64,000 nt of DNA from Bryoerythrophyllum caledonicum (lineage: Eukaryota; Streptophyta; Bryopsida; Pottiales; Pottiaceae), in the NCBI GenBank assembly GCA_963971425.1, contig OZ020516.1, forward strand, positions 19,227,332-19,291,331, written 5' to 3'. How positions within the stretch are numbered: the first letter of the stretch is position 1; the number at the start of each line of letters is the position of its first letter. This document shows positions 4,102-24,936 of this stretch, in pieces. Under the pieces are notes generated by a model that was not told where the DNA came from, searched no databases, and saw nothing but the letters and a program-made list of their open reading frames with translations. The translations under genes were made by a program, and so were the position numbers.

Positions 4102-4130
4102 CTAGGGTTGGTACCCGTCGTCCCGACGGG
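4102..4130 (-). other. Helitron 3' terminus: hairpin and CTAG
   Basis: A 7-bp stem (4114-4120 with 4124-4130) and 3-base loop lie 8 bases before CTAG, which is followed by T on the minus strand. This matches the rolling-circle terminator of plant Helitrons. Confidence 0.85.
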
Positions 4131-4431
4131 AAGAGCGGAGGGTGGTGTGTTAAATTTACGTTTGTATGTTTTGTATTTTAAAACCTATAAGCTCGAATCG
4201 AATCTAAGTGGAGAAGTACTTATATTTTTGGAGTGCATGTAAACGTTACCCTAGTTTAAATCCACTCAAAAAAATAAAGTACTTTTGCTTTACATTTGCA
4301 TTTTAATCGACCCTTTGTGCACATAAGTATCACTTGCATAATATAAGAGGAGAAAACCCTTCACATCAAGAGGTCAAATTCAAGAGTCATTAGGGTACTA
4401 CCTAATATAGGAGGAGAAAATCCTTCACAAA

Positions 4432-4469
4432 ACCCTAAATCCTAAATCCTAAATCCTAAACCCTAAACC
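4432..4469. repeat. Short telomere-like repeat tract
   Basis: About five units of CCCTAAA/TCCTAAA lie in tandem. CCCTAAA is the usual plant telomere unit. Inside a Helitron this is a short interstitial tract and not a chromosome end. Confidence 0.6.
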
Positions 4470-5599
4470 TTGTTGGTACGGCCTGGGGAACAATCTGCTC
4501 CCTTGACACCATCGCCACAAAATCCAGTCTCTCTCTTGCTAGAATTAAATCTTCAGGAGTTGGGGCACATTACCATGGGTTATGGAACCTGACAGTGGAA
4601 GATATGATAGATTGGTAAGCGTCTCACTTGCACTTCTGACGCTTTAGATGAGACACAAAATAAATGCATGCCAAAATGAAGAGATAGATGAAACGATTTA
4701 ATGGAGAAGGAGAGGCCTACTTAATACGTCCGTGGCAACCATGGAAAGTTTGCCTCTGGAATCGACCATGGGTTGGCCCTTTAGATCTAGTAGATTTTTA
4801 CAGCTGCATTGCAGCATGGAGGCGAAAGCAACCCTGTAGTGCCATTCAACTTCATAGGTAACTTTCGGAAATAGTAGATATGCAACAAAGTCAAAGTGAG
4901 GTAATCCTGGTATAACCTATCACACGGCCAACCCATAATGAGTTTCAACCAAGAGACATGGACTCTATTTACGATACGCTTTGGGCATTTTCATTGTGAG
5001 TTTAAAATAAGTGTCTGTTGCTGATGAAGTCTATTTGAAGAGCATGAAGGCACATATTACACTACTTGTAATCATCATAAAATTTGGTGAGGTTTTGAAT
5101 CTCAACGTACTCTTGGCCCACCTCTTCAGCAACCCTACAGAATCATTCAAGAAACCATTCAAACACCTTCAAGAAACCAATTCTAGCGTCAAAGCTTGTC
5201 CATACTTCATGCTTCGAAATACCTAGACCTTCACAAATATTTCTTTGATCTTTTTCTTTGAATAGATGGCTTTGTCTCCACTGCAAAGTGAACACCCCAG
5301 ACACCGAAGTCCCAGAGTATTCAGTACCGTAGATTGGTTTCAAACCTATGGGAATAAGGAGCTTCCAAGTTTTGCTGATCAGGACATTTTGCTGAATGGA
5401 AACAAAGATTAGCATGAGATTTACCACTATATGAATGCGGATGTGTTAAAGTGCTATACCTGATGAAGCTCAGAAACAATACGGGTCACCGCTGGAACCA
5501 AACACATGAGCTCTGATCGAACCGAAGACGTGAAAAAGCCACCAAAAAGGAAATGAGCTAAAGCCTGCACACCTCTTCCGAGACTTGCACTGTGCCCTT
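4470..5599. other. Helitron interior, possible unassigned captured exons
   Basis: Several pieces look like exons but none is identified. On the plus strand an open piece ending VEDMIDW runs into a GTAAGC donor near 4617, and another (LWNRPWVGPLDLVDFYSC) runs to a GTAACT near 4858. On the minus strand SELMCLVPAVTRIVSELHQ at about 5460-5520 ends at a GTATAG, and a 94-codon open frame spans 5143-5427. They may be further captured fragments or intron sequence; I assign no function. Confidence 0.3.
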
Positions 5600-6014
5600 G
5601 ATGATCTCCCTGTTATTGCGTCCCAGCACCTACACGAACATGATTCTCTCTGCCCTTCTTCACCACCTGAGGCTCAGTTGCGGTAATGATGAGAATGAGC
5701 TTCTGAGAGCTCCGGTTCACAGAAGACTCCCGATCGGTACCCGTATCGTTCCACATTCTTGGTGCGGTCTTGGGGGTAGAGTGGGGGGGCGCGGGCAAGG
5801 CGGGAACCACCTTGCGCGGGTAAGCAATGATATCTAGCCGGAGGACCTTGGGCACCACACAACTCTTGGTCACGTGATAGAATATTTGCTCTAGGATAGG
5901 TTCTGAAAACTTCCACAAAACAGAGACTGAACTATATGCAAACTGCAGGTCCACTTCTGAGCTTATGTTTGCTTCAACATAACATTTTCTTGCTCTCAAA
6001 CGTAACGTCAACAA
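5600..6014 (-). pseudogene. Captured coding fragment, unidentified
   Basis: A 133-codon open frame (5613-6014) and an overlapping 80-codon one occupy a GC-rich patch that ends in NHVRVGAGTQ. Downstream, GRNNREIIKGTVQVSEE can be read in another frame up to a GTGTG donor-like site near 5571. The composition resembles exon sequence more than its surroundings. It lies inside the Helitron in the same orientation as the golgin, TFIIE-alpha and ClpP6 fragments, so capture is likely, but the donor gene is unknown. Confidence 0.35.
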
Positions 6015-6079
6015 TTGACCTTAGTAAGTATGAAATTCTACCCCCAAAAAACAACCAACATGAGCTAAAAAATTCACAC

Positions 6080-6151
6080 CTCTTTCTCCTCAAGAAGACC
6101 CGCGTACTTCATCGTTGCCGCGTCCACGTGTGTCTCCGTGTAATACCCTAA
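6080..6151 (-). pseudogene. Captured golgin-like internal exon
   Basis: On the minus strand TTGCAG| opens a 72-base exon ending AAAGAG|GTGTG. Its translation ends MKYAGLLEEKE, which resembles the NYAALL-EKE block that follows the N-terminal region in plant golgin candidates 3 and 4 (Golgi coiled-coil tethers). It lies about 100 bases downstream of the golgin first exon. The exon phases do not agree (the first exon ends after two bases of a codon), so an exon may have been lost or the frame has drifted. The match is short and moderate. Confidence 0.5.
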
Positions 6152-6254
6152 CTGCAATTCAACCCAGAAAAAAATCCATCAAAACCCTATTCACTACATG
6201 TTAGGTCAGAAGAAGCAATCCGTCCCTAAAAACTGGATTATCCAAGTAAGCTAC

Positions 6255-6388
6255 CTCGCGTCCTTGGCATCGTCGGGCGCGCCATTGTGGTACCCCTGGA
6301 GCGCATCGAGATCCTCGTCCTGGCTGTCCAAGGCGTTGGTGGCAATCTGCATGATGTTGTCCTTGAGCTTCTCAAACCGGCTCCACAT
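6255..6388 (-). pseudogene. Captured first exon of a plant golgin
   Basis: Starting at ATG 6388 the frame reads MWSRFEKLKDNIMQIA and continues to DSQDEDLDALQG, ending at GAG|GTAGC (6255). Plant golgin candidates 3/4, long coiled-coil proteins of the Golgi membrane, begin with MWSS-x-LK-x-NL-x-KIA followed by an acidic DDDED stretch, so the start codon, spacing and acidic run all match. Only about 45 residues of a protein usually over 600 long are present; the coiled-coil body and GRIP-like tail are missing. It is therefore a fragment and not a working gene, and its position inside the Helitron explains it. Confidence 0.65.
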
Positions 6389-6500
6389 TGTGTGTCCCAC
6401 CTCGCGCTCACAGCAGCTCTCCCTAGCGAAATGAATCGTGCATGATCTAATTTCACTGGTTTCCAATCAAATGCAAGAATTCAACCCCTAAAAGTATCAG

Positions 6501-6519
6501 TACCCGTCGTTTCGACCCC
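6501..6519 (-). other. Possible decayed internal Helitron terminator
   Basis: On the minus strand CGAAACGACGGGTACTGATACTTTTAG-like sequence resembles the true 3' end (CGACGGGTACCAACCCTAG). The hairpin's outer arm is no longer complementary and CTAG has become TTAG. It could be an older terminator that replication ran through. Confidence 0.3.
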
Positions 6520-6533
6520 TCACCGACCATGAG

Positions 6534-6638
6534 CTTCGAGACATGTTTTCATGGACTTTGAGACATGTTTTCATGGACTTTGAGACATGTTTTCATGGAC
6601 TTTGAGACATGTTTTCATGAACTTTGAGACATGTTTTA
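6534..6638. repeat. 22-bp tandem repeat, about 4.8 copies
   Basis: Units of 22 bases (ctttgagacatgttttcatg plus two) start at 6534, 6556, 6578, 6600 and 6622, with one or two changes between units. It lies upstream of the golgin fragment, within the Helitron. Confidence 0.85.
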
Positions 6639-6643
6639 CTGGC

Positions 6644-7030
6644 AACCGCCGACATGAGCCCTAAACTCTAAAGCTTAGTTTCAGCTCCGAACACATTGCT
6701 AGACATGAACTTTAGGCATGTTAAAGTTGAATACTCTTTCCTCACTCTAACAAAATTATTAGATCAATAGAAGGGACTTCCAATTTAGGAAACATTAGAG
6801 CTTGGTGGTCTCTAGACTCAACTCAAAGCACTTTAATCCATCTTTGTTTGAAAATGCAGAAAGAGATTGGATGAATTTTACCGGCCTTTCCCTCTTTTGA
6901 GCTGATTTTTTACAGATCAGAACTATTTTGAGCTTAGTTTAATTCAACTCAAAATGAAGAAAAAAAACATCAAACTATCTGGTTCAAACATTGGGTGACT
7001 ATCCAAATAGCTCGACTATAGCTCTAAACC
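6644..7030. other. Helitron interior, intron-like filler
   Basis: AT-rich sequence with no supported exon. It lies between the golgin first exon and the exon that the LTR element interrupts. Confidence 0.4.
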
Positions 7031-7129
7031 CTAAAACTCAACACACAACTTGGGGACATACTGCAAGCGAGACCTTGCCGTGAAGAATTCTACAACCTCA
7101 GTTGAACTACCCCACCAATCGCACCCTCT
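7031..7129 (-). pseudogene. Unidentified captured exon, downstream half
   Basis: On the minus strand this is the continuation of the open frame at 23475-23665, cut apart by the LTR retrotransposon. It reads GCDWWGSSTEVVEFFTARSR and then continues to a stop near 7031. The bases AGAGG (7125-7129) are one copy of the target duplication. The two halves share one reading frame once one duplication copy is discounted, which supports a single pre-existing exon. The family is not recognised. Confidence 0.45.
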
Positions 7130-8014
7130 TGTTAAAGGGGGATTTCACCCAAAAATTAGGTGAAACATCTTCTCTACACTTGTCCAAACTATAATTCCCA
7201 GCCATAAGACACAAGGCAAGGATCTGACTTGTACTGAATCTTAAAACCTCCGAATCGACCTCGATCTGAATCTAGATCTGAATTCAGGGTTTGTTAGGAC
7301 TTTGGTTCTGTAGTTTTTCTTGCGTTTAACGTATAGATTTGAAGTTTCCGTACTCAATTACAACGAATCAGGACATACCCACAACAGATCCGGACTCGTT
7401 TCCACCTCTAACACACTAGTTTTGGTCGGGGTTTAGTAGATCAAGCTAGATCTGTACCAGATCTAATGGATTTAGGCCAGATCTACAATACCCACAACCA
7501 AATTGCACTCAAATGCTCTTCTAACAACAAGATCTACTCACACATTCGCAACACCAACACAAACACGCAAGAAATAGTATCCAATTCATGCTTTACTTCC
7601 TCAAACCTTCACAAACCTCTTCCATACTCTCTACAACTATAGGTCCGCATATTAGCTCCAGATCCTAACTCTCTAACCACACTTCTACATTCTACTCTCA
7701 CACATTACGAGCTCCACACACATACACACGAAGAGAGAAGAAGAGAAGAGAGAATCAGCCTCCAACCCAAGAGGGCGGCTCTCTACCCCCTCCAAACCCT
7801 AATCTGCCCTAATGGATGAAAAATGTCCGGATGGATGACATCCAGGTCCGGACAGTTTCATCCAAAGTATAGACAGTTCATCCACTGTCAATTCAGGACA
7901 GTTTCATCCACTGTCCAGATTTATCCACTGGTTTACTTTTTAACCATAACTACTTAGTAACTTCCAAAAAATTACTACCGGGACCTTGTAACATGCCTAA
8001 ATCTCCGGTTAACA
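7130..8014 (-). repeat. 3' LTR of the Gypsy element
   Basis: 885 bp, nearly identical to 22569-23474. Its ends are the inverted pair TGTTAA...TTAACA. It lies downstream in the element's direction. Confidence 0.95.
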
Positions 8015-8017
8015 TTA

Positions 8018-8030
8018 TCCCCCTTTTGAA
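8018..8030 (-). other. Polypurine tract
   Basis: On the minus strand TTCAAAAGGGGGA lies four bases before the 3' LTR, where plus-strand DNA synthesis is primed in LTR elements. Confidence 0.75.
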
Positions 8031-8239
8031 CAACATCTGCCCTCAGATGTTCACATGGTACTGGAGAGAAACATAACTCTAGACACAAAAATACTGGTAC
8101 TGACATTTAGATTACGAAGTCACCTCTGAAGCTCTACTGGACATCTCTAGCCACTTGAAGGAGGGACTACCTCACGGGGAAGATCTTCAGCGCTTGTCAA
8201 ACCGACTTCAGGCTCTGAACTGGTCGCTGCCTACAAATC

Positions 8240-11200
8240 ATGTCCAGAACTGGATGCCTTCGCCTTCAGCTTGATCGATTCGGGTCCTGAAACTGCCTTC
8301 GGGTCGAGTGTCTTCGTCAATTCCACCGTTGGAGGTGGAAGAGGCGTCTGGACTGGCCCTGGAAAAGTAACTGGAGGAGCCATCGGATAGTACTGCTGAT
8401 ACTGCGGTGCATGTCCTCTCGTACAAGTTCCATACCATAATGTCCAGGTACTCCACTAAATGGATAGTGTCCCGGAGGTGGATAAGGGTATGGACCTCCA
8501 TAGCCACCTGCTCGAGCGTATTGCTCCATAGCAGCCATGTGGAACCCTGGTAGTCCTCGACCACCTTGAATATCTGGAGAGCCAGAAGAAATCCCCGCTT
8601 GATCCTGAATGGGTCCAGAACTAGAGCCACCCTGGAAAGGATAAGTTGCTCCCCAGAACGGAGTGGTCTGAGGCTGAAAATCTGGGGTTGGGAGAGGAAT
8701 CGTCTGGGCCCAAGGAAGGGTCACCATCCTGGCAGCAGGTGCCTTGGACTAGGGAGTAGCCTGCCATCCAGTCTCAGTGTCGGAGGCCAATGCAGAAGTG
8801 TCTTGAACACTTCCAGATGTACCACCCTCTGGAGTTGGATTAGTCTCCTTCTCTGGAGGGTCATCCAACTCCTCATCGGAGCAGTAAACAAACTCCGGGT
8901 AAGCATCCACAAACTTGAGGAGGTACTTGTTCAAACGATCCAGATCGGCCTGGTAAGCACCCACCTCACTGAGCAGTTGTCGTCGTGAAGCAGCAAGGAG
9001 AGGCTTGGTTATCCCACGGCTGGAGATCGTCTGACGCCCCTCCACTAACTCCAGTCGACGAAGAAGTTGATGGTTATCCACCACCAACTTGTCAAATGCC
9101 CGAAGTCGAGCACTCATCTGAGTCTCCAGTTCCACCCTCTTGACATGAGCTGTTGCAACAATCGCGGGGTCAAATCTGGACATCTCCAATCTTGCAATGT
9201 CTAGCTCCTTCCCTTTGTCCTCCAAGGTCTGGGAAGTAATCTGTAGTTGAACCTGGAGTGCTTGAATTGTTCTCTGGAGTTGAGCCTGATCCTCGATTAA
9301 TTGGATTCGCGTTGGCTGCGCTCGTTCCAACTGGCCTTGGAGTCCCTGCGTTCTGGACAATGTCTTGGTAGTGAGGTCCAGATACCTCAGTGCCTCTTGA
9401 AACCCTGCTGCAACGTCCCGTGACTGCTGCTGGACTTGGGTAATTGTCAATTCCTCCGCCATAGTCGTTGGGGGAATCTCTGGGGATTGGCTACTTGGCT
9501 GGGAGTCCTGCACGGGGGGTAACTCCTCGAGAACCGCCTTCTCTGGTACGATAAGTGGTGGCTCTTGTGGAGTCGCGGAAGTACTTGGTCTGTATTGCGG
9601 TGGAGACTCCTCGTCTATCTCCAGATGGATCTGGACTAGCCTCCGCAATCTCTTTGGAGCTCTGGGTACCGGGCTGGGAAATTCTACTCCCATCGTGGTA
9701 GCTGCTGGTGAAATCTGTCTATGACTGGATGTGACTGCACCTTGCTCTATTTGTCGAAAATCTGAAGAATCCAAGTCCTCTACTGTACTGGCTGCAAGTG
9801 TTTGGGGAGTTCCTGTAAGCTCAGCATGTCTGGTCCTCTTTTGTGTTTGGATGGGGCTCTGTGGGGGACTCCTCTTCCTGGATTGGTTTCTGATGGATCG
9901 TCTGCCGGGAGGTGCAGTCGTTGGAGGAGGTGGTCCCTCTGGAGATGGTGTGAGAGGAATTGGGTTCCCCACAGTCCGTCCTCGAGAGCCATCACTCTCA
10001 TGCAAATCTACTGGTGGGCCAGGTACTCGGTTCGCGTGGTCAACCTGGACATCTGCGTCACTGTACTCCTCGTCATGGGGAAACGAGCGCCTGAGTAAAG
10101 CGTTGATCAGTGCTGCACCTAGAATCTCAGACATCCCCCCGAGATATACTCGGGTTAACATCCGCCGCAGTCCAGAGATCACCAGTGGTGTCCAGTCGTG
10201 GTTGCCACCCTTAGACTCCACCGCCGTATACAGATGAGCCATGAGGTCATTACTGGTGTGTGAAGACCGTTTCTTCACACACAGTACATCCACCAAGGCC
10301 TGGATGCGGGTCTGATACAACTCTGAAAATCCTGCTAAAAGTACACCATCAGTAGAAAAATGCTTGGGTGTGAGCTTGAACCTTTTTTGATACAGTCGGT
10401 GTGTATCCTTGGCGCTCCTGGACACGATTAACGTCTGAGTGCCCTCCAAACCCAGGGCCTCCTGAACCACCTGATAAGTAATGTTGACTGGGATGCCTCT
10501 GACCACTGCCCGTATAGGTGACTGTGGAGTTAGTGCCTCTGGTCTCTCGTGGATGAAGCCTTCCACAAAATCCCGCACCAACTCCTCCCGAGGTGGAGAC
10601 CATGTGTACTCATAGAATGCACCCAGTCCCACCGATCCAGTCCAAGCATCATCCTGAATATCCCGCCACTTCTGCCAGAATCGTAAAGGTAAAAACTAGA
10701 GGTTCAATCTGCGGTTTACCTGCCGAGGGATGTGCATCCGTCTGGGAACTCTGGCATCCTGCTGAGTGATTTTTCGCCGAACTGGAACTTGGTCTCCGGT
10801 GTTTGACATTCCAAGAATACTCCTCCCAGGTCCTGTGCTCCTTGGTGCCAATTTGTCTTGCAATTCAGCAGGGCCGGACATTCCTACAGTCCGAGGTATC
10901 TCTGCAGGAGGTCCAGTAAGTACTTGATGCTCTGGATCTTCGCCCTGCTGGACAGTCAGTTCCGGAGGTGCTCCTCTCCCCGGAGGAGTCAGCAGAACCG
11001 TTGCAGACTCTGTAGGCTGAACTCTGGATGGTTTTGAACACCCTGGATCACGTGTGAATAAGTCGAGGTGGGTCTCCAGGGGTATGGTAACTGGACTGGG
11101 TTGTCCGGGTTCTAGAGGTCTCGATGGTGCTCCCGCCATCCTCCGCGCTTGTGACTCTTCCAAGTTTCGTGGTCCTCTACGACTGACTAATCCGGATCCT

Positions 11201-13190
11201 CTTCCGGTATTTTCGAGTTGGGAAGCAAATTCAGGAATGCTAGCCAAGTCTAGACTAGGTTCATGATGTCTGAAAGCTGTAGAGTGATGCTCTAAAACTA
11301 CATTGGTTTTTGTTTTAAAATTTTTATTTTTACTTTTAACACGCTCGTGTCTATCTTTTAATTTGAGCAAAGCTTTCAATACTGCAACGTTCGGGGCCTT
11401 ACTTGTGGTTCTTGGAACGGCCTGCGATTGCTCCTACCGATCCTGATCTTCGCTCCCAGCGGCTGCAGTCGTGGCTTCTCTATGCAGGTTGTCTCCGATA
11501 TGTGCGTCCTCCTCTCTGATGTTATCGTGACCCTCCACCTTCTGGATTTCGTCACTCTCGTCAGGTCGGGACCTTCGTGTTGTTGCTGCGTATATAGCCT
11601 GCACCTCGTTGGCTTCCAAGCTCCTCGTTGGTCTTGTCCTGCGCTCCTCTCTTTTCCCTTTGTGGAGCGGTTCAACTCCAGTTATGGAATTAATGTTAGT
11701 GAGCGCTGCCGTTGGTGTTCTTGTTTCCTTCCTCGTACCTCCAGACACCCCTGCAGTCTTCGCCGGACTCTCTCCTATGATGGTGATGTGCTTCCGAACT
11801 GCCCTAGCTAGACCTTGTGCGTAAGTGCTGATTTCTTGGGACCCTGTTATCTTCTGCAGCTGCTTGGTATGGACTTCCTCCTGTTGTGTTGCTGCGGTAG
11901 TAAGTTTCACGAAGCTCCTGCCATCGTTGCTACAGATTTCCTCCTCAAACCCCAACAGTTGCACACTCGCCTCTTAATTCTTGCTGGAGTCTCTCCTCTC
12001 CTCACGTTGAGTCTCGTTGGCCCTATTTCGCTGTCGCTCTCTCATGTTCCTTCGGTCGGCCTTCTCTTGCTCGAACTGCCGATCTCCCCCTGTTTTCGAA
12101 ATATGGAGAGCTACTGCTGCCGGGTGATGGCCCTCGTCCCCTTGTGTTACTCGTCCTGTACTGCAGGATTTTGGGTCCTTGTTGTAGGTGACGCCACCAC
12201 GCGCCGGGAGCTTGTTTCCCCCTCCCTGTAGCTGAGTCGGGCTGTCTTGGTCGTCGTTGTTGGTGGTTACTGTGTCGTGAATCTCCCTCAAGGCGTCTTC
12301 TTTGTTTTGGTGTGGGAGTCCGCCGAGTCTTTGTGGTTTCCCACTCCTCCCGACATTTCTCGCGGCGCCAGTTGCTGCTTGTCCCTGTGAAACCTTAATC
12401 GTTCCTGTACGTTCGAACCATCCACCAACCTCTGCACCCGGCAAGTATTGTATCTGCCCTCGAACCCTAAGCGCTCCTCGCTCTGTAGTGTCTCTGCCAC
12501 GTTCTTCGCTGTTGATGTCGTCCTCGTCTTCAGTGCCGTCGCCTATGTTTACTTGGGCATCTCCGTCTTCACCCGCTCCGTTTCGCCCTCGCTCCCACCC
12601 GTAACTTCGGCTCTCTCTACTCGCATCTTCTTCCTTCGCCCATACAGCCGCCTTCTGTTGTCCTTGTGGCGTGGAGTTTGATCTTTTGCCATGGTTCTCT
12701 TTGGATGAATCAGTGCTCATCCAAAAAAAATCATCCATCCTGTCTACATCCTGTCTGGGTTGATATGTGTCCTGGTTACCTAATGCTTTTTCCACGGCTT
12801 GACCCTTCTCATCCCGAATGTATGCCAACTGTTCCTCCCAGAATTTTCTGTCTGATTCAGAAAAAACATTTCTTTGCTTCCAACCATTATTTGTTATGGA
12901 TGTTTTGTGTATGGACTCCCCATTTCCCGTGACGGGTATTGTCCACCAATTTCCATTCCTTCCGGATGAAATTAGCTTCTGTTCCTGGTCTTCCTCCATG
13001 TTAGATATATTCAATGGAAACGAAAATGCTTCATCCAATGGGGATGAACTCTCTACCATCCTCCAATGTTCATCCAATCTAGACATCCTCTGGTTCGGTG
13101 AGCCCTTTTTCTCCAACATTGATGGGACTTGCACTTCTCCACAATTTTCAACTAATTCGGGTGAACAATTCATCATACACAGGGATTGTG
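8240..13190 (-). other. Accessory ORF region of the Gypsy element
   Basis: Roughly 5 kb between integrase and the 3' LTR holds several open segments in the element's sense. The largest, about 8.75-10.63 kb (some 627 codons), looks whole. Its N-terminal 170 residues (VRGIPVNITYQVVQEALGL, later MAHLYTAVE) resemble the putative plant transposon protein domain known from Athila-type elements. A proline/serine-rich middle and a glutamine-rich coiled-coil C-terminal third follow. Upstream segments (about 10.7-13.2 kb) are polar and charged with no domain I recognise; I see no signal peptide or membrane anchor, so an envelope role is not supported. Function unknown; treated as part of the fossil. 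Confidence 0.55.
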
Positions 13191-13949
13191 CCTAAATATG
13201 AACGTTCTTGCTCGATCTGGACCTTTTACTGCTTCCCTGTCCGTCCTCTTTCTCCACCACCTCCACCGTGTTGCAGCCCAATATTAATCCCCAACGTTTC
13301 TCCTCCACTTCTCCTCTCCATTCTTCCTTCTCTGGTTGTTTCTGGTTGTGACTGGACTTGTCCTCTTCTCCCACGTAACTCCCTAATCTGGGGTTCTCCA
13401 ACTCCAGTTGACTAGTACCCTGCTGATTGTTTTTTGTCAGTGTTGAAGTAAACACTGGACTTTTCCAATTGCCGTGATTCCTTAGTACCACTTTTTGGTA
13501 CTCGTCTGGGTTATCTGTGTTTCCCAGGTCCTCTTCAGACTCTGCTTCCGCAAACTGCAGACATCCTAGTCCCTCCTGGTTCATCTGATCGTTTCGACCA
13601 TCCTGTTCTACCAATTTTTCCTTGTCTGGACCACTGTGTTCAGGCAATTCCAAATTGTCTGAACCCTTCTGTCTGGATGACTCCAGATCGTTATCCAAGC
13701 CATCCTTTCCCAGCCACTCCGTTTGGACTGTCTGAGCCATTCGCACCATCTGGTTTGTTGTAACTCTCGCAGAATCTGGACTTCCTGGGGGAGTCAGAGT
13801 CTTCTGAACTTGGTCGTTAGGACTACTATCTCCCTTTTGCTGCTCAATCCGTCCCTGGATTGAGGCATCTGATATGACTGGAAGTGCCTGGTTGGTTTCA
13901 TAAAACCGATAGGGCTTGAGCTTGTTGATGTTGACCAAAATTGGGTTTG

Positions 13950-16900
13950 GCTCAAAATTATCCACCTTCACCAAAAGAGTGGTGTTGTTCGGTAACCTGT
14001 ACTGGATCCGGTAAGGCCCAAACCACCGGCTCTTGAATTTACCAGTGTGCTCCTTATGGCCCTTTGGGTACCATAAAACATGATCTCCAATCTGGAAGTC
14101 CTTTTGCTTGTAATGTTGCTGACTCCAGAGCGCTCTGTCCCACTGCCGTTTGCCCACCTACTCCTGGGCCACTGTCCGGTAAGTGTCCACGTGTTCCAGA
14201 TCTGCAATCCGAGCTGCCAAGACCCGCGTAGCTGTATAATCCAGAGATCCTTCCGATGTCTGGGTTGGGATCAGGTACTCTGTAGGCATCATCGGATGTA
14301 AGCCGTACACCAGCTGGAATGGTGTATGTCCTGTGGACACCTTGTAGGCTGTTCTGTAGGAAAACAACACGGTATGGAGATGTTCGTCCCAGTCCGTGCG
14401 CTTCTCATTCACCAATTTGGTGAGGAGCTCGCCGATCGCCTTGTTGGTCGATTCCGCTTGACCATTCCCTTGTGGATAGTATGTTGTAGAAGTTCGGTGC
14501 TGGAGGAAAAAATGGTCCACCAGATACTCGATTGCTTCATTGATAAAGTGAGAACCTTGGTCGCTGACAAGTGTCAAAGGACACCCGTACCTGGTCAATA
14601 TCTGTTCATACAGAAATCTTGCAGTGACTGCAGCAGAGTTCATTCGCAAGGCCCGAGCCTCAACCCACTTGGTAGCGTAATCGGTTGCCACCAAAATGTA
14701 CCGACACCCTGATCTGGACGCCATGGGTTTGATGGGTCCAAAAAAGTCCAGTCCCCACTTCATGAAGGGCTCCGCGGACATGCTGGTAACAAGTTTAGCA
14801 AGTCCCGTGGTGGTCATCCCTCCCACCCGTTGACATTTGTCACAGGCCCGACAATACTCCGATACATCTCTGTGTATGGCTGGCCACCAATATCCAGCAT
14901 CCAGAATCTTTCGTGCAGTAATGTCTTGTGAAAAATGGCCGCCTCCAACTCCCATGTGTAGTTCCCGCATCACCAGTTCGGCTTGACCGGGGTCTAGTAC
15001 TCGACGGATAACCAGATCCTGCCCCCTCTTGTGCAGCACTCCCGATATGAGTGTGAACGGAAGGGATTTGAGGATGAGCTTCCGTTGTTCGTCCTTGGTC
15101 AACTCCCGTCGCAAATGTCCAGTGCGGAGGTAGGCTGTCACATCCTGTAACCACTCTGGGTTTACATAGAACAGACCCGCATCTCCAGTTTGATCTTCCA
15201 CTCCAGTTGGGGGTTCACCATTGGGTAATCTGGACAACGCATCCGCGATTCCATGGGTCTTGCCTGGTTTATAAACCACAGTAAAATCGTATTCCTGGAA
15301 AAGTAAGAGCCATCGGGCGATTCTCCCAGATACCTGTGGTTTATTAATCAGGTACACTAAAGCCATGTGGTCAACAAAAAAAACAATTTTATTGCCCAAT
15401 AAGTAATGTCGGTACTTACTCAGAGCATACACCATCGCCAGAGCTTCCCGTTCAGTTGTAGTGTAGTTCTTCTCAGCTGAATTCAACAGTCGAGAAGCAT
15501 AGGAGATTGGCTGGTCACATTTCCCAGTGGGATTTTGGGCCAGCATGACGCCCACAGCAATGTTGGAGGCATCTGTATGTATGTGGAACTCCAGATCCCA
15601 ATGTGGTACAATGAGAATCGGGGCATTCAGGTACGTCTTCTTGATGTCCAACCAAGCCTTCTCGCATTTATCCGTCCAAATGAACTCCTCAGTTTGGCGC
15701 ATGAGTTTGGTAATGGGTTCCATGATGTGTGCATAGGACCGGATATAGCACCGGTTGAACTGGGCAAAGCCGTTGAACACCTGGACGTCCCTAGGTTTGG
15801 TCGGTCTTGACATGTTGGCAATGACCTCGATCTTCTTCGGATCTGGAAATTTGCCTTCTCTGGACACGACGTGGCCTAATATGATTCCAGAGTACACAAG
15901 TAGTGCACATTTCTCCGGGTTCAGACTAATGCCGTACTCCCGACACTTGATAAAGCACAGCCAAAGCTTCTCCAGGTGAGTGAATATATCACTGTATACG
16001 CTGAAGTCGTCTAGAAACAGCTTCATGAAGTCATCAATATACTCCCGAAATGCTTTGTTGACTGCCCTCTGGTATGTAGGCGGAGCGTTCTTGAGTCCAA
16101 ATGGCATAACTATCCAGACAAAAGCTCCCCAGTCTGTAACAAAGGCTGTCTTGTACCTGTCCTCCGGAGCAATTTGGATCTGATGATATCCAGAGTATCC
16201 GTCCAGGAACGAGTACATCTCATGACCCGCCACAGTATCCAGAACTTCGTCTGTAAAAGGTAATGGATACGGGTCTTTTTTGGTTGCTGCATTCAGCTTC
16301 CGGAAGTCTATGCATATGCGTAACTTCCCATTCTTCTTGGGCACAATGACTATGGGTGATAGCCATGTAGCATCCTCCACTGGGGCGATGAATCCAGCCT
16401 GGAGCAACTTGTCCAGATCACGCTTGACAATGCTGGCGTAGTTTGGATTCATCCGGTATCGGGCTTGATGGGCTGGAGGTATGTCCTTCTCCAACTCAAT
16501 CCGATGTTGGGCGATTGAAGGAGGGATCCCTTTCAAATCCTTGTATGTCCATGCAAAGACATCCTTATACTCCCGAAGGAGTGTCTCTACTTGTGCAGCC
16601 AATTCTGGGTCTAGATCAGCATTTATCCGCAAATACTGTGGTTCCTCTTCTGTCCCCACATTGACCTTGCGCTGTTGTTCTGACTCAGGAAGTGTCCAGG
16701 CCGCCACCTGCATGTCCTGGACCTTGATCCGCACGGGAGTTTCGTCTACATCGATGTCACCTTCTGTGAATGTATAGAAGTGCGCCGGGTACGTGGCCTG
16801 TGGACTCTTCTCGTTCTCTCCAGAAGTTTGTGTGTCTCGTGCTGACTTTGGTACTAGCGGAGTATGTGGGAGGGGGTCCGAATCTGGACCTACACCAAAA

Positions 16901-17400
16901 CTTGGTAAGGTTACGGTTCCAACAACCAAGACATCTGGTTCTGTATCTAGCCATCGGGTCTCTTCTTCTTCGGTCAGTCCCACTTCAAAGCTGTAGGCGA
17001 CTACAACCTCTGGCAGCTTAGGTCTGGGGCCTGTGCGCTGGTTGACTGGAATGGTCTTGACATTGCCGCCTCCACGAATGGTCACAAGGTTGTTGCCCCA
17101 ATCATGCTGGACTTTGGCATCTATCAGCCATGGTCTTCCCAACAACATGCTGTAAGCTTCGTTAACCTCCTTGTTCTTGATGACCGTAAGACTAATCAGG
17201 TATGGAATACCATGAATGTGAATCTTAACATTCCGTATAAGGCCCACCGGTTCCACTACCGTCTGATCTGCCATACGTAATCTGTATGGTGCAGATTGTG
17301 GGTCTCTGAGACCCAAACGCTTCTGCTCCTCTTCTGTGATGAGATTAACTCCAGAGCCGCCATCCAGCAGAACATTTTCCAGAGTGCCAGTACCAATTTG
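13950..17400 (-). other. Gypsy pol region: PR, RT, RNase H, IN
   Basis: In element order: an aspartic protease with LLDGGSGVNLI (about 17.35 kb); reverse transcriptase with CIDFRKLNAATKKD, MPFGLKNAPPTYQ and the LFLDD catalytic box (about 15.8-16.5 kb); RNase H with HTDASNIAVGVML and FFVDHMAL (about 15.2-15.6 kb); integrase with an HHCC zinc site (about 14.85-14.95 kb), a DDE core showing VATDY, VSDQGSHF and GQAESTNK (about 14.4-14.75 kb), and a C-terminal GPY/F module with RWFGPYRI (about 14.05 kb). All expected catalytic parts are recognisable, though the region is not whole. Confidence 0.9.
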
Positions 17401-18099
17401 TACGCGTAGTACTGGTAAATTCCGGTCTACATCTACCGCAGCACTAGAGACTGGACTTGGTACCTTGGAGGTATCGGGGTCCATGGTCGGAGTGGTACTC
17501 TTCTCTAGAGTTGCCCGTGGTTCTGAAGAGGGGAACAAGTGAGTCCTCATAAAGTCACTGAGGTTGGGGGCCATGTGCAGTAGCTGTCCAAGGGTCACCG
17601 TCATTGGACTCTGTAATATCTTCCGCCCCACTCCTGGAATGATATTTGTTGGGCCTCCTAACTGAGGTGGTTCGCTCGGTGTGGCCTCCTTGGGGTGGAC
17701 TGAACTTTCCAGGACATCAGAGTCTGGAAAATCCAACCAGTCTTCAGAAGAGGAAGGTACAACTTCCTTGTCTGGGTCTGGAGTGGGCTGAGTAGAAGTT
17801 GTGTCTTGATCAGCCTGCTCTTCCTCTTGCATTTCCTTGATGGTATCCATCATCGCATTTCTCAATCTTTCTTCTTCTTTCCAATCTGCTTGAGTCCATG
17901 CGCTCCGAGGTTCAGGAGCTTGGTCCTCCTTGTCTGGTGCTGCTACCTTCGCCTTGAGACGCTGAGCTCTTGTCAAGCTGGCTACTGCAACTAGATCTTC
18001 TTCCTCCAGTAATTGGATCTCCACGTTGCTCACGTGGTGGGCAGGATGAGCCTTGCTCTTAGCCGTCGTGGCTAGAAACTCTTCCCACTCCTTCTTGCA

Positions 18100-20510
18100 C
18101 GGACAATTGTATCTCCGGTGTCCCGGTTGACCGCATAAGTGGCAAACCTCTGGCCTGTTATAATTGGAGTCGCCACCTCCAGCACGCGAATACACCGTTC
18201 TGGAGTAGCTTCCGGAAGAATTCTGTTGTGGGCCTTGGTTTGATTCAGGCTGGATCCGGACTTCATTTACATTCACTGATGCTCCCTCCGTGTTTTTTCG
18301 AGACAGTCCTTGTGGATTACCTGGATTGAACCAGCAATCGGGCTCCAGATGTCCTGCACGTTTGCACCGGGTGCAAAATTTCTTGGGCGCTTCTGGAGTG
18401 GCCGCCTTACTCGTGGTGCCTCCATTCTTGCCACTGGAGTCGTTTCTTCGGATCTCGATACCTGTTGTTTTACCATTCAGGTCCGAACAGTTCTCCTCGC
18501 ATCGAAGTGCTGCATCCAACAACTCTGTCAAAGTCCGGGCTGGAGCAATGCTCGTGGTGAACTTGATGTACTCCAAGAGTCCAGCTCGGAAGTTAGTAAT
18601 TCGGAAGCCCTCTCCTGGATCCGACTGCAGACATTTCATCAATGTCATGAACCGGTCATAGTAATCCTGGACTTTTTCTCCCACCTGCTGTGCGAAGGAC
18701 TTGAGTTCTCTGTACACGGCTTCATCAGTAGTCTAGCTCCGGTACCGTTTCCGAAATGCCGCCTTGATGTCAGCCCATGAGCAGTACAGGTGATTCTCCA
18801 GATATGTCTCATACCAGGCTCCAACTTTGTCTCCCAAAGTGGTCCCAAACAAATTGATGATCACTTGTTCGTCGGTTTCTCCATTATGCCACAATGTCCT
18901 CTCGAACTGGAGTATGTGAGCGTCTGGATTACTCCCCTCCTTGTTCTTGGTGTACGTCAGGGGTTTCCTGTTCGGTACTACCGCCGCGGGTGCTGCGGTT
19001 CGCCAAACTGGAGCTGGTGCTGGGGGTCCAGTTGAGTAATCTGGTGGAGGATACGTCCGAATGGGTCCTCTGTACGTGGTCTCTCCAGGCGGCAACGGTC
19101 TGTCGTCTACCACTGGTAGATAACCGGAGCTTGATTTTGGAGCCAAACCTGGGGGTGGGCCCATACGTACAAACTCTAGAGCCCTGGATCTAGGTCCTAG
19201 TGTAACGACCTGAGGTGGGTAGACCGTAGGATACGTACCCACATACGGCTGCTCCTTGTAGTGCACCGGTTCCCGTGCCCTGGATAATGTTCCAATTGGA
19301 TGGACTGGACCTCCTGGACCTGCGCCCCTGCCGTCGGGTCTGGGCGTTGGCGTTGCTCCCATTGTCCTGGAAGGCCGCCTGTCCATGTATTCCCATTCCT
19401 CTGAGTCTGGTTGTCTAGATGAGTCTCCCAGCCGCTCTGTAGGGCCGATCTCTGGGACATGTCTCCATCTTCCCAACGGGTCTGGTTGTGGTGCTGCTGT
19501 TGATGGCTCCGCTACACTCTGCCATGCTTCCCACCACTGGAAAGTCTGTTGTCGGGCCTCGTCCTTCCGCCTTTAAATGTCTGCAGCCCTCTGGTCCTCC
19601 AGGCGTTGTTGCTCTTCCTGCCACGTCTTCTCTGCATCTTGTCGTTGGGTCTGCTCTTGCAGTAACCTTATGGCTTCCGGGAGTTCAGGTCCAGCTCTTG
19701 TCTGATAGCCCCACTCTCTTCGTTGCGGTTGTACTGGGCCTCCTTGTGTCCTTTGGCGTCTTGCCTCCTTCTCCGCCCTTTGTTGAGCCTTAAACTCGTC
19801 CAACATTCGCCTTTGTTCAAAGATGAACTCTACATCATGGTCGAAATCTGCTTCTTCTCTGAAGTGGACTGTTGGTGTCCTTCGTGTAGGTGGAAATCCT
19901 TGATTGCTCCTGTGCTCGTCCAGTCCTGGACGTCCCACATGTGGTCCTGGGCGTCCCATATCTAGACCATATCTCCTTGGGTATTCGTGTCCCAACCTCT
20001 GGCTCATTTCATCCAAACTAGCACGTAGATTGTCTGGAGTTTGAGCTTCATACCTTGGAGTTGGCGGTCTTTTCCATGCCCGGAGGTCCATCCTCTCCTC
20101 TAGGTCTGGATCATTGACCAACATGCTGACATTCGTCTGAACCGGCTCCCATCGGTGGTGGAGTGTGCCTTCAGGGACTCCAAACTCCCTCTGGTTCATC
20201 TCTGGTGCTCCCTGTGCTTCTCTGTTGTCCTGTCCTGTCCAGATCGGGAGCTCTCCTAGATCTCCGAGTCCGTCTGGTCTTCTCTGGGGCAACTCGTCTG
20301 CCCCTTGTGATGAATTTTCTCCAATCACCTCCATGTCGACTGGATGTCTCCGGTTCGCCGTACTTTCCTCTGAGCTTGGGTTCCGGTACCCTGTAGTGTC
20401 TTCTGCCTCTACTTTCTGCTCCTGAATCCTTGGTAGAATTCGTCTCCTCTCTTGCTGTGCTTGGAATCTTGCTGCGAGCTCTATGTCCAGACCTTCATGG
20501 TCGCCCTCCA
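18100..20510 (-). other. Gypsy gag region
   Basis: The first part is glutamine- and arginine-rich. The middle has a retrotransposon gag domain (WYETYLENHLYCSWADIKAA, about 18.75-18.95 kb). Near the end are two CCHC zinc knuckles, CTRCKRAGHLEPDC (about 18.35 kb) and CHLCGQPGHRRYNC (about 18.12 kb). Gag would form the virus-like particle and bind RNA. The region is broken. Confidence 0.8.
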
Positions 20511-21929
20511 TCCTGTAGCAGGTGCTGCCACTGTATGTTATGACTTCTTTGTTGTATCACTCAAGTAGTGCGCTTCTCCAGCCCTCCAGTGTGTGGTCCT
20601 CCAGTCAGTTACCTCCTCCGGTACTGCCTTTGTCACCTGCACCTGGTCTGGTCTTTTGCCACTGTCATGTTTCTACACCCAGATCACCCCACTCATACCA
20701 GTAGTCAGTAGTACATGCTCTTCATTCAGGTTAGGTCCTTTCTTGGTTCCAGATCATTTGTTTCGCTGTCAAATATTCTTTGCCAACATTTTCTCTAGGA
20801 TAACACTGGTCTAGCCACTGCTTCCTCTTCTGTTCATTTCCCACTGGATGTCCAGGTCTGATTTCCAGCTACACCCTTTCTCCTTACCCAATTTCAAGTT
20901 TGAGTCTTAGGTCCCAATTTGCCCTAACTGTGCTCACTGATTTAGGTTCTCGTTTCTTGATTTTCTGCCGGCCATACACATTTGTTGTTTTTGTTCTTCC
21001 CTGTTTATGGTTTTTACGTTTTCATATTAATTTTTATGAATGTCCAGATATTAATACATATCTCAGGTTACATCCAGTTCATGTCTAGTTTTGTTTGGAT
21101 TCCTTACTGATGTAGCCAATAATTGTCCAGATTTTTTTTTTTTTTTTTTTTAACGTCCAGTTACTGTCTACGTTCAGTTACTGGTAGTTGTTTACATCCA
21201 TAGATGACAATCATCCAAACAACATCCCCACTCCATTCAACCCAACTGCAGAATTTTTGGATTTGGAACTTACCTTAGTAACACTGGACTATCCCCCTTT
21301 TATCGTGGGATCAGTCCTCTGATTCAGCGCTAGTCATGTGTTGGCTGCACTTTGGCGCCTCCAGATAATCGTCGCCTAGACCACTGCTCCAAGGTTCTAA
21401 TGCCAGTACCCGAGTCACGACAGGGGTCCGGGTGTCATAGGCAGGGATGTTGGGGGTAGTACTGCTCGGCTGCGGGGGTGTAGATGTAGACTCTGAATGT
21501 GCTAGTGGAGAGTCCAAAGGCAGTCTTCGGGAGTTGTGCAACTTGAGTTCCTGGACCGTAATCCTGGACGTCTCCTTGTACCGTGGGGTAGGTCTGGGAA
21601 GACTCTAACAGGGGTGATATGAGTCTGGACACTCCAGATGTCGCAGGATGCCCCTCTGAAATTCTTCAAGTGTGAGATGGTCACAGCTGGAGGGGCTGTT
21701 TGGGGCCGTATAGAAGGCTTCGTCCTCCTCCAAGCCCTGGTAGCTGCGGTTGCCCACGTAATGGTCAAAGTTCGCAATGAATCGTTCCAATGGGAGCTGC
21801 GCCTCACTCTTGAACTCTGTGCTCTTCCTTGACCCCATCCACCTGGACTTGGTCAATTGTGTGGGGCTGCTACAGATTCTGCAGAGACGTCACCAATGGT
21901 GAAAAAATGTTGTCCATTTTTGGACTAGA

Positions 21930-22440
21930 CTGTACAGCAGGATCTGGTCAGGGTATCCGCCGGACTTCAATTCAGCAGGGTCTCGCCAGGATTTCGGTGG
22001 ATCTTCACTGCTGCAGGGTATTTTCAGGATCTCTGGTGATCTGTACTGCTGCAGGGTAGGGTCCGGGTCGTTGCTGGACGTCACTTGAACAGGGTATCAC
22101 CGGGTATCTGCTCGACTTCACGCCAGTAGGGTATCGTCAAGGTATCTGCCGGACTTGACTCCAGTAGGGGGTCGCCAGGGTATGGGCCGGATCTCGGCCG
22201 GACTGCCCTTCAACCGGATATCTACAGGATCTCTTCTGGACGTGACTACAGTCGGGTATCTCCAGGCTTCTACCGGACTTCACTGCGGCAGGGTGTCGCC
22301 AGGGTATCTGCGGTTCTTCTACTGCAGAGTATCACCGGATCTCGGCCGGACTTCTTCTGTTTGTGGCTGTCTGTAGCTGTCTGTGGCCGGGCCGTGTCTG
22401 TCTGTGGCCGGGCCGTGTCTGTCTGTGGCCTGTCTGTACG
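21930..22440 (-). repeat. Degenerate tandem repeats in Gypsy leader
   Basis: Between the primer-binding site and gag, a unit of roughly 45-50 bases containing gccagggtatctgccggact recurs imperfectly at 21930-22345. A shorter 22-base unit (gtggccgggccgtgtctgtc) repeats at about 22372-22440. No coding role is evident; leaders of large Gypsy elements often hold such repeats. Confidence 0.6.
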
Positions 22441-22550
22441 TGTCTGCAGCTGGTGGCACTGGTTTGCTGCCGCTTGATCCGCCGCTTCCGGCTACCCTCC
22501 AGAACTGTGTTGGCATGCGCTGCGGGTCAACAAGAGCCACTTGGTTCGAA

Positions 22551-22567
22551 CTTATGCATGGTCGCCA
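22551..22567 (-). other. Primer-binding site, tRNA-Arg-like
   Basis: One base inside the 5' LTR the element reads TGGCGACCATGCATAAG. On the opposite strand GTTCGAA followed 14 bases later by GCCA looks like a tRNA T-loop, acceptor stem and CCA end. The first eight bases fit the 3' end of plant tRNA-Arg genes ending GGTCG-CCA; the assignment is inference. Confidence 0.5.
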
Positions 22568-22568
22568 A

Positions 22569-23474
22569 TGTTAAAGGGGGATGTCACCCAAAAATTAGGT
22601 GAAACATCTTCTCTACACTTGTCCAAACTGTAATTCCCAGCCATAAGACACAAGGCAAGGATCTGACTTGTACTGAATCTTAAAACCTCCGAATTGACCT
22701 CGATCTGAATCTAGATCTGAATTCACGGTTTGTTAGGACTTCGGTTCTGTAGTTTTTCTTGCGTTTAACGTATAGATCTGAAGTTTCCGTACTCAATTAC
22801 AACGAATCAGGACATACCCACAACAGATCCGGACTCGTTTCCACCTCTAACACACTAGTTTTGGTCGGGGTTTAGTAGATCAAGCTAGATCTGTACCAGA
22901 TCTAATGGATTTAGGCCAGATCTACAATACCCACAACCAAATTGCACTCAAATGCTCTTCTAACAACAAGATCTACTCACACATTCGCAACACCAACACA
23001 AACACGCAAGAAATAGTATCCAATTCATACTTTACTTCCTCAAACCTTCACAAACCTCTTCCATACTCTCTACAACTATAGGTCCGCACATTAGCTCCAG
23101 ATCTTAACTCTCTAACCACACTTCTACATTCTACTCTCACACATTACGAGCTCCACACAGATACACACGAAGAGAGAAGAAGAGAAGAGAGAATCAGCCT
23201 CCAACCCAAGAGGGCGGCTCTCTACCCCCTCCAAACCCTAATCTGCCCTAATGGATGAAAAATGTCCGGATGGATGACATCCAGGTCTGGACAGTTTCAT
23301 CCAAAGTACAGACAATTCCATCCAAAGTACAGACAGTTCATCCACTGTCAATTCATGACAGTTTCATCCACTGTCCAGATTCATCCACTGGTTTACTTTT
23401 TAACCATAACTACTTAGTAACTTCCAAAAAATTACTACCGGGACCTTGTAACATGCCTAAATCTCCGGTTAACA
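22569..23474 (-). repeat. 5' LTR of the Gypsy element
   Basis: 906 bp, matching 7130-8014. The 21-bp excess is an extra copy of a tccaaagtacagacaattcca-type step near 23310. The element's promoter is expected here, but I did not identify a convincing TATA box. Confidence 0.95.
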
Positions 23475-23665
23475 CCTCTACATCCATCTGGTGCAGAATT
23501 TAGACATTGCACACACCTTCGGTACACGTTCAACAGCTGCTGCTTCATGCACGCCTGCCGCAGTTCTTCGCTCGTCACCAACTCGATCACCTCGCGACCA
23601 AGACCTTGAATTTTCAAAAAGCAACAAAGAAGACATACCGTACCCAAGGGTCGGATTTGGCACAA
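23475..23665 (-). pseudogene. Unidentified captured exon, upstream half
   Basis: A minus-strand open frame reads VIELVTSEELRQACMKQ, then NVYRRCVQCLNSAPDGC, reaching the LTR at 23475. The frame resumes beyond the retrotransposon at 7129. Together the halves show a CxxC-x7-CxxC pattern, which could be a small zinc site. The composition is exon-like. I do not recognise the family; it lies between the captured TFIIE-alpha and golgin pieces. Confidence 0.45.
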
Positions 23666-23913
23666 TTATGTCGAAATAACTATCTAGATGATCCCACATG
23701 CCAAACCCTAGAAAACCAACATAAACCTAATCACACTCACAGATCACCACCTCACCTGCAGATCACAACTCCAATAGTACATGTTGTTCCGTTCACCACT
23801 TAACCTCAAGCATGCTTGAAGAGCTTCATACTCAACCAATGAAAATACACCACCGCGACAATCACCGACCCTGTCAACGGCACAACCAAACTGTAGTACC
23901 TGCAACCACAACA
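23666..23913 (-). other. Helitron interior after TFIIE-alpha exon 2
   Basis: A minus-strand open frame (VLQFGCAVDRVGDCRGG ... YYWSCDLQ) follows a TTGCAG| acceptor-like site and ends at CTGCAG|GTGAGG. It could be another captured exon or intron sequence that happens to be open. It does not match the TFIIE-alpha sequence expected after exon 2. Confidence 0.3.
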
Positions 23914-23998
23914 TTCTAAAACTCGCAACGTGCGCTTGAGCTGCTTGGGGTGAAGCCACAAGACTTTCGCCAAATCCTCTTCTTTCACCCATTGTCGC
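23914..23998 (-). pseudogene. Captured TFIIE-alpha exon 2
   Basis: After an acceptor GGTCAG|GCGAC the frame continues exon 1 with RRQWVKEEDLAKVLWLH and KQLKRTLRVLE. This is the winged-helix core of the general transcription factor IIE alpha subunit (family pattern RRQWVREEDLAK-LKLH-KQLRRTLR). The split codon AG|G (Arg) agrees exactly with the end of exon 1, so the intron (23999-24080, GT-AG) and phase are preserved. The match stops at 23914, where the family would continue FEEEKLVTRDHRRE, so the captured segment ends here. It cannot make a working TFIIE-alpha, which needs the zinc ribbon and C-terminal regions. Confidence 0.8.
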
Positions 23999-24080
23999 CT
24001 GACCGAGATAAATCCACAAGTAAGCAAATCACAACGAAGAAACGAATGCAAGCTACAAAACTTAACGGTGTAAGGTCGAC

Positions 24081-24229
24081 CTGGTGAGAGCATCCAGAAT
24101 GAAAACAACAATTCCCTTGTTATCCGACTTGTCAGACTTGCTCCGATTCGGTCCTTTGGCAGGAATCTCCTCATCATAGAAGGCCCTCGCCACTAACATC
24201 ACTAACCTCCGAAAAGGATCGATGTTCAT
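24081..24229 (-). pseudogene. Captured TFIIE-alpha exon 1
   Basis: From ATG 24229 the frame reads MNIDPFRRLVMLVARAFYDE, then KSDKSDNKGIVVFILDALT, ending at AG|GTCGAC. This is the N-terminus of plant TFIIE-alpha, whose product helps load and regulate TFIIH at RNA polymerase II promoters. It is uninterrupted for 49 codons. A TTGCAG acceptor-like site near 24296 suggests that a 5'-untranslated exon was taken as well. Only exons 1 and 2 (about 78 residues) are present, inside a Helitron and next to fragments of unrelated genes, so this is a captured copy and the full gene should be elsewhere in the genome. Confidence 0.82.
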
Positions 24230-24580
24230 CTCTCACATTAACTTCCAAGTTAAGAAACTACCTACTCCGAGGAAGAAATTCAAGCAGCACACCTGCAATA
24301 CCACACATTACAATAAGCTCAAACTTTCCAAAAGTCGCTCTCAAATCAAAGATTCACATTTGCATTACATCTGTTCCCTTCTCAGATAGTTTCTCCGCTT
24401 CAACCACTCCACTCTCAACTCTCTCGTTTCCAAAAACCTAGCTAAATCCGCACTATCACACACTAAAATAACTCCAAATCAATTTTCAGAAACCTCAACT
24501 CAAGAAAGAAAAAAACTCTATCTTCCATCCCAAATTTCCTCCAAACTCCGACTCGCAGTTTCACACCAAAACCCTCGAAC
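24230..24580. other. Intron-like filler between captured exons
   Basis: AT-rich sequence between the ClpP6 and TFIIE-alpha pieces. It probably holds the TFIIE-alpha leader intron. No other feature is seen. Confidence 0.4.
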
Positions 24581-24713
24581 TTGTATAAATGGCGAGCCCA
24601 CGAAGATGATGTGGTTGCGGAGCATGAGGGTGCTCAGGTCCACGGGGCCCGACGGCGTGATCACGGCGGGCATGATGGGAGGCGCGCCCTTCTTGGCGGC
24701 CCGGATGGCGCCG
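24581..24713 (-). pseudogene. Captured ClpP6-like exon
   Basis: After a CTGAAAG| acceptor the frame reads AKKGAPPIMPAVITPSGP and VDLSTLMLRNHIIFVGSPF, ending near CAA|GTTCGAG. Plant ClpP6, a catalytic subunit of the chloroplast Clp protease, has EAKKGNPPVMPSVMTPGGP followed by LDLSSVLFRNRIIFIGQP at the start of its mature domain, so the match is close over about 40 residues. The serine, histidine and aspartate of the active site lie in later exons that are absent, and TFIIE-alpha begins 350 bases downstream on the same strand. It is thus a single captured exon. The patch is GC-rich compared with its surroundings. Confidence 0.78.
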
Positions 24714-24817
24714 CTTTCAGTTGCAGCTCGCACGTCTCACCCATCTTGTGACCCTCAACGATCGGTTGATCTTCTTCTCAGCTCGTTGGTCTCCTGGTTG
24801 TGTAGGATGTCGTCCTT

Positions 24818-24896
24818 GGTGATGGTCCTTTTGGTCTGCTGTGTGGTGATGGTCTTCTTGGTCTGCTATGAGGTGATGGTCTTCTTGGTTTGTTGG
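24818..24896. repeat. 27-bp tandem repeat, three copies
   Basis: Units starting ggtgatggtc-tcttggtctg begin at 24818, 24845 and 24872, close to the Helitron 5' end. Confidence 0.8.
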
Positions 24897-24910
24897 AGCG
24901 GCGGATAGAC

Positions 24911-24936
24911 AGATTGTCGCCTATTATATAGGTAGA
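24911..24936 (-). other. Helitron 5' terminus
   Basis: On the minus strand A|TCTACCTATATAATAGGCG marks the 5' end; the following GACAATCTGTC run resembles plant Helitron starts. The base before TC is A, as required. Confidence 0.8.

Follow-up and report, generated by a model that had tools for sequence, protein, structure and literature searches.

Maize Helitrons capture many gene pieces together with introns, promoters and splice sites, and can potentially give chimeric transcripts (PMC4528327). A review also describes multi-gene capture by Helitrons, with chimeric transcripts, in maize (PMC13317346), and fragments may be acquired stepwise (Dong et al., as cited in PMC4683698). We describe a Helitron on the minus strand of a 64,000-nucleotide stretch of DNA (the window, C3:19227332-19291331 of a searched genome of 437 Mb in 894 contigs). 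Very probably it is a non-autonomous element of 4,485 bp with cargo from at least five host genes, which was amplified and was later split by a long terminal repeat (LTR) retroelement.

As described for maize (PMC4528327), unrelated gene pieces with introns, promoters and splice sites were multiplied. Unlike that description, the case here comes from another genome, has a small cargo family of six copies, keeps the remnant of an internal 3' terminus and is known from DNA alone. Mothra of rice, as described in PMC4683698, has the same TC/CTAG ends, a hairpin 12-13 bp from the end, a high copy number, no autonomy and capture before amplification. Compared by description, it carries one captured fragment, whereas five donors are seen here. 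Helraiser and Helibat (PMC4778049) transduce flanking DNA by bypassing the 3' end, a process that we infer here for one step. For Helraiser this was shown in cell culture and was aided by deletion of the hairpin, whereas here there is a genomic trace with a hairpin region that can fold.

Pack-MULEs are likewise transposons with gene fragments, some of them expressed as chimeric transcripts (PMC13317346). In our element, the first 20 bases agree with the reverse complement of the last 20 at 6 of 20 positions, and the duplications at the flanks are 0-2 bp long in all seven copies with both ends. Neither of the features typical of Pack-MULEs, terminal inverted repeats and a target duplication of around 9 bp, is found here.

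The element exemplifies a known phenomenon and is well preserved. Its donors, joins, amplified copies and internal terminus are legible in one genome, so read-through can be compared with filler or template-switch models, step by step, on a natural element. Within this genome, the locus documents exon shuffling by Helitrons that involves several genes. It would also, if the host is a non-seed plant, add to a process that the literature cited describes mainly from maize. No multi-gene Helitron capture in bryophytes, mosses, Physcomitrella or Selaginella was evident in titles and abstract openings of the papers listed in one open-access library, and reports may exist elsewhere.

Helitron ends and dispersed copies

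The element begins with TC at 24936 and ends with CTAG at 4102, and A and T adjoin these ends. Both ends had been placed at exactly these positions by the original prediction, made from the letters of the window. According to PMC4683698, Helitrons are recognised by a 5' TC, a 3' CTRR, a hairpin that lies some 10-12 bp from the 3' end and a target site between A and T. The window element has TC/CTRR ends and a 3' hairpin CCCGTCGGGACGACGGG at 4130-4114, with a predicted stem of 7 bp, followed by 12 nt, TACCAACCCTAG.

The 5' start was aligned in 15 other loci, 13 of which begin with TC. With the window included, TC is present in 14 of 16 rows (the exceptions are L022 with CC and L034 with TT) and the neighbouring base is A in 15 of 16. 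At the 3' end, the CTAG and the adjoining T are found in 13 of 13 rows, window included. A query with the 5' end gave at least 45 genome matches, and many of those listed stop at the last query base, 24936. The terminal 3' 19-mer occurs at 546 genome sites at no more than 2 mismatches, compared with 4 for a reversed control. Other copies share the ends, contrary to what would have refuted the prediction. In the seven copies with both ends, the longest flanking direct repeat is 0 in six and 2 bp in the window copy. The Helitron was thus inserted between A and T with no target duplication.

The join of TFIIE-alpha, PIG-Y and galactokinase sequence is common to six copies, including the window (31 of 31 candidates scored). 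Their positions are given in Table 1. Only L020 aligns end to end in one piece. Sequence is deleted close to the 5' end of L017, and L018 has one insertion and one deletion. In L019 the initial 81 bp are missing, and in L021 there is no 3' end within the stretch read. Pairwise differences among seven copies (these six and L024) range from 5.3 to 8.4%.

Shorter copies with the same ends were also found, of 428 bp (L026) and 492 bp (L027). Joined flanks of six copies were searched in the genome, keeping the best 40 of 3366 candidates. Of 47 rows listed, 46 cross the join, with 30 belonging to L026 and 16 to L027. These two short copies have empty sites in the genome, which supports Helitron insertion.

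No RepHel was matched in the open reading frames scanned in the element, and the longest stop-to-stop frame in its 4,485 bp has 172 amino acids, as expected of a non-autonomous Helitron. The open reading frames scanned in the Helitron body gave no usable Pfam match. In the genome, at least 152 RepHel (PF14214) matches are present (best 150 of 492 candidates scored), and, comparing the lists by eye, none of the matches listed lies within 10 kb of a listed 5'-end match. The element would have moved by rolling circle, as its family membership implies, with RepHel supplied in trans.

Telomere-like AAACCCT/AAATCCT repeats are present at window positions 4430-4467, inside the 3' region of the Helitron. 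Genome matches to the AAACCCT-like stretch concentrate near the end of contig C7. This clustering would fit a TTTAGGG telomere, as in many plants.

Captured gene pieces and their donors

The genome contains five donor genes outside the element, spread over four large contigs (C8, C14, C2 and C7). All five donor pieces are oriented in the same way as the Helitron. Maize Helitrons also favour captured pieces in their own direction. When aligned to these parent genes, the pieces of the window differ by 4.3-6.8%, which is near the divergence between copies. The donors extend past the captured part, into further exons or the gene itself (translations and splice sites were chosen manually). The pieces follow each other closely, with a 1-bp overlap or 1-9 bp between them, and a gap of about 15 bp separates the 5' terminus from the first piece.

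Table 1. Features of the window and copies of the element. Helitron position 1 is window position 24936, and the LTR element is excluded from Helitron coordinates.
Feature	Position	Helitron position	Strand	Remarks
Helitron 3' terminus	4102..4403		-	hairpin, TACCAACCCTAG, last base 4102, then T
Helitron body	4404..5824		-	5824-5488 also elsewhere as dispersed repeat
Golgin-like gene, first exon and part of next intron	5891..6448	2139-2696	-	donor L044
PIG-Y 3' flank, 42 bp	6452..6493	2094-2135	-	donor L039:1027-1068, 97.6% identity
Internal Helitron 3' end, second subfamily	6493..6517	2070-2094	-	final AG missing
22-bp tandem repeat, end of galactokinase piece	6534..6637			Tandem Repeats Finder, 4.7 copies
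Galactokinase 5' flank, second part (after LTR element)	6594..7124		-	donor L040
CCTCT target duplication of LTR element, left copy	7125..7129			right copy 23475-23479
Gypsy-type LTR retroelement, nested, not part of the Helitron	7130..23474		-	LTRs, target duplication, domains
Galactokinase 5' flank, first part (before LTR element)	23475..23686		-	donor L040, C2:916 kb
PIG-Y piece	23686..23913	1024-1251	-	donor L039, C14:1.567 Mb; 15/228 substitutions
Predicted TFIIE-alpha/PIG-Y fusion frame, 113 amino acids	23806..24229		-	exons 24229-24081, 23998-23806
TFIIE-alpha piece	23915..24581	356-1022	-	donor L038, C8:25.998 Mb; 39/666 substitutions
ClpP-family exon piece	24591..24755	182-346	-	donor L037, C8:607.9 kb; 7/164 substitutions
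Helitron 5' terminus TCTACCTATATAATAGG...	24771..24936		-	first base 24936, A before
Full-assembly copy L017	C1:27.78 Mb			
Full-assembly copy L018	C1:45.85 Mb			
Full-assembly copy L019	C3:30.22 Mb			
Full-assembly copy L020	C1:25.67 Mb			
Full-assembly copy L021	C1:51.37 Mb			
Partial copy L024	C1:30.63 Mb			3' half only retained

The first piece had been called a ClpP6 exon. The donor exon, joined manually to the next exon, matches PF00574, and a PDB search likewise gives ClpP; by itself the donor exon matched no Pfam model, and its PDB search yielded no ClpP. The exon and its direction therefore stand, at the level of the ClpP family. We presume that the gene is ClpP6, a name that the searches do not support beyond the family.

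Two TFIIE-alpha exons with their intron, also named by the original prediction, were confirmed in the Helitron direction, the second being truncated. The piece contains 352 bp of 5' flank, exon 1 (24229-24081), the intron (24080-23999) and part of exon 2 (23998-23915). The spliced donor matches PF02002 with 30.3 bits. A genome-wide search with PF02002 gave no match, probably because introns split the domain.

The PIG-Y piece consists of the end of an intron with its acceptor, the last exon, whose stop ends at 23806, and 3' flank. It matches PF15159 in the window (E 5e-10), and this domain is also found in the donor. The galactokinase 5' flank spans Helitron positions 1251-1993 and, over both parts, has 50/739 substitutions relative to its donor. 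It stops 149 bp short of the donor ATG, with PF10509 downstream in the donor. The PIG-Y locus contributes twice, once on each side of this piece.

The last piece is the first exon of what we take to be a golgin-like gene, with its donor at C7:14.110 Mb (28/558 substitutions compared with the window). The exon and its direction agree with what had been predicted; the name golgin was given by no search. One further site, L041 (C4:25.038 Mb), was considered as donor of Helitron positions 2450-2608 and rejected, since these 159 bp are also part of the golgin donor and L041 is only another site of that piece.

This 159-bp part (window 5979-6137) recurs alone at the C4 site. In L017, L019, L020 and L024 its divergence from the window is 2.5-3.2%, less than that of its neighbours (5.7-9.8%). 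In L021 the difference is 6.3%, and in L018 it is 13.9% over only 72 sites.

Taken as a whole, the chimeric capture of several genes that had been proposed is well supported by the six copies, the donors on four contigs and the empty sites of the two short copies. At least three host genes had been claimed, and five donors were found, as PIG-Y and the galactokinase flank had been missed.

Proposed assembly history and coding potential

The cargo would have been assembled in steps. A first Helitron may have acquired pieces of ClpP, TFIIE-alpha, PIG-Y and galactokinase through near-blunt joins resembling filler or template switching. The 3' end of this first Helitron would then have lost its last bases and been bypassed. 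Through the bypass, the element would have gained flanking sequence of PIG-Y, golgin sequence and a 3' end from another Helitron.

An internal remnant suggests one such read-through step. This sequence, GGTCGAAACGACGGGTACTGATACT, is identical at 23 of 25 bases to the 3' end of a second Helitron subfamily (L049, GGTCGGAACGACGGGTACCGATACTAG), which occurs at 190 genome sites at no more than 2 mismatches, compared with 1 for a control. The score of the remnant is 40, whereas 100 mononucleotide shuffles reached no more than 24. Each of the six full-assembly copies lacks its terminal AG and continues directly with PIG-Y flank.

Several observations weigh against this history or against parts of it. 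The read-through step rests on one 25-bp remnant, and this still folds (-11.1 kcal/mol, compared with -11.3 for the window terminus and -7.8 for the L049 end). Only the loss of the final AG is thus seen, not a failure of the hairpin, which leaves room for a copied-in piece. A second, weaker match, at Helitron positions 2835-2854, scores 27, also above the shuffle maximum, and golgin sequence begins after only about 42 bp of PIG-Y flank, neither of which this history accounts for. The golgin piece is also present in other Helitrons (L042 and L045), with shared changes that fit one or two captures. Empty sites were found for none of four gene-carrying copies (window, L020, L017 and L018) among the best 40 of 3366 candidates. 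Finally, no RepHel element that shares precisely this pair of ends was identified.

The strongest alternative is that there was no read-through. The remnant would then be copied-in filler or a partly deleted Helitron insertion, and the pieces would have come together by template switching in break repair. Near-blunt joins elsewhere in the cargo, with 1-9 bp between pieces, are in line with this, as is the use of the PIG-Y locus on both sides of the galactokinase piece, and the folding of the remnant leaves a failed hairpin undemonstrated. Against it, the remnant is a terminus, in the correct direction, with host flank directly after it in every one of the six copies. We regard this alternative as quite possible, falling a little short of an even chance.

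Helitrons placed head to tail were observed in the 3' flank of L018 and at about position 235 of L051, where CTAG is directly followed by the TCTACC of the next element. Such arrays would favour fusion by read-through. At about 2740-2780 of L050, a 3' region of the window family ends before its hairpin, 4 bp upstream of the 5' end of another Helitron.

Other Helitrons also carry PIG-Y. A larger copy (L047) is enclosed by a Helitron 5' end (C1:33640177) and a 3' end of the second subfamily (C1:33650733). The copy adjoins the 5' end, and the interval (L047, L050, L051 and L054) contains a RepHel match with two stops. This partly read stretch would be a single Helitron of 10.6 kb. A shorter PIG-Y element of about 2.6 kb is found at C14:15183400-15186044 (L046, L052 and L053). 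From these two elements it follows that Helitrons took up PIG-Y repeatedly, or to differing extents.

In terms of coding potential, a putative chimeric RNA could arise from the 5' flanks and splice sites that were captured. TFIIE-alpha exon 1, its native intron and the truncated exon 2 continue in frame into the last PIG-Y exon. This frame is intact in three of the six copies (window, L017 and L019), with a stop in L020 and a frameshift in L018 and L021. None of the six has a stop in the frame containing the PIG-Y part.

Changes relative to the majority sequence were compared with the same changes placed at random, counting copies separately and including frameshifted ones. In the fusion, 47 replacement and 33 silent changes were found, with 27.5 silent changes expected (P 0.12). 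In the ClpP piece there are 28 replacement and 9 silent changes, with 12.5 silent changes expected (P 0.93). Changes in the captured coding pieces look neutral, with no sign of selection.

It is very improbable that the cargo encodes a functional new gene in the form of a TFIIE-alpha/PIG-Y fusion that is spliced and under selection. The in-frame product of 113 amino acids, the 5' flank, intron and splice sites captured with it, and the stop-free PIG-Y frame speak for it. The damage to exon 1 in half of the copies, the number of silent changes and the partial TFIIE-alpha domain, which at 16.7 bits falls short of the 22.9 cut-off, speak against it. The cargo is mostly passenger DNA.

A further proposal, in which at least some copies would be transcribed from the TFIIE-alpha 5' flank and spliced through the native intron to give a new in-frame TFIIE-alpha/PIG-Y protein, is unlikely, though less so. 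This protein would combine a putative DNA-binding fold with a membrane helix, and would have arisen when a Helitron with a bypassed 3' end fused with a second Helitron.

The nested LTR retroelement

The original prediction took the whole of 4102..24936 as the Helitron. Its ends were right, but 16,345 of the 20,835 bases between them belong to a nested LTR retroelement that had been missed. Since this element is nested inside, the Helitron proper measures 4,485 bp and not 20.8 kb.

The LTRs are located at 7130-8014 and 22569-23474, and reverse transcriptase, RNase H and integrase are found within 14158-18732. At the same point, the LTR element is absent from the five other full-assembly copies. 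The two parts of the galactokinase flank are contiguous in these copies and in the donor, across the insertion point.

The Kimura two-parameter (K2P) distance between the LTRs is 0.016 (14/885 sites), compared with 0.055-0.077 when the window Helitron is set against six other copies. Given this lower value, the LTR element most likely arrived after the Helitron.

A single Helitron of 20.8 kb that captured everything between its ends, including the LTR element, is scarcely plausible. Both ends do enclose the entire stretch. The LTR element nevertheless has its own LTRs and CCTCT duplication, its site is uninterrupted in the five other full copies and in the galactokinase donor, and its LTRs diverge less than the Helitron copies. 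A segmental duplication or an assembly error that joined the gene pieces, for which no supporting point was found, can be practically dismissed given six dispersed copies with identical joins and Helitron borders.

On the minus strand of window 8749-20556, eight successive frames of the LTR element lie in one reading frame, with seven single stops between them. One of the eight is pol, and most of the others reach the cut-off of no Pfam model.

Elsewhere, window positions 39000-62000 contain many related, diverged repeats in both directions, with the longer ones about 74-86% alike.

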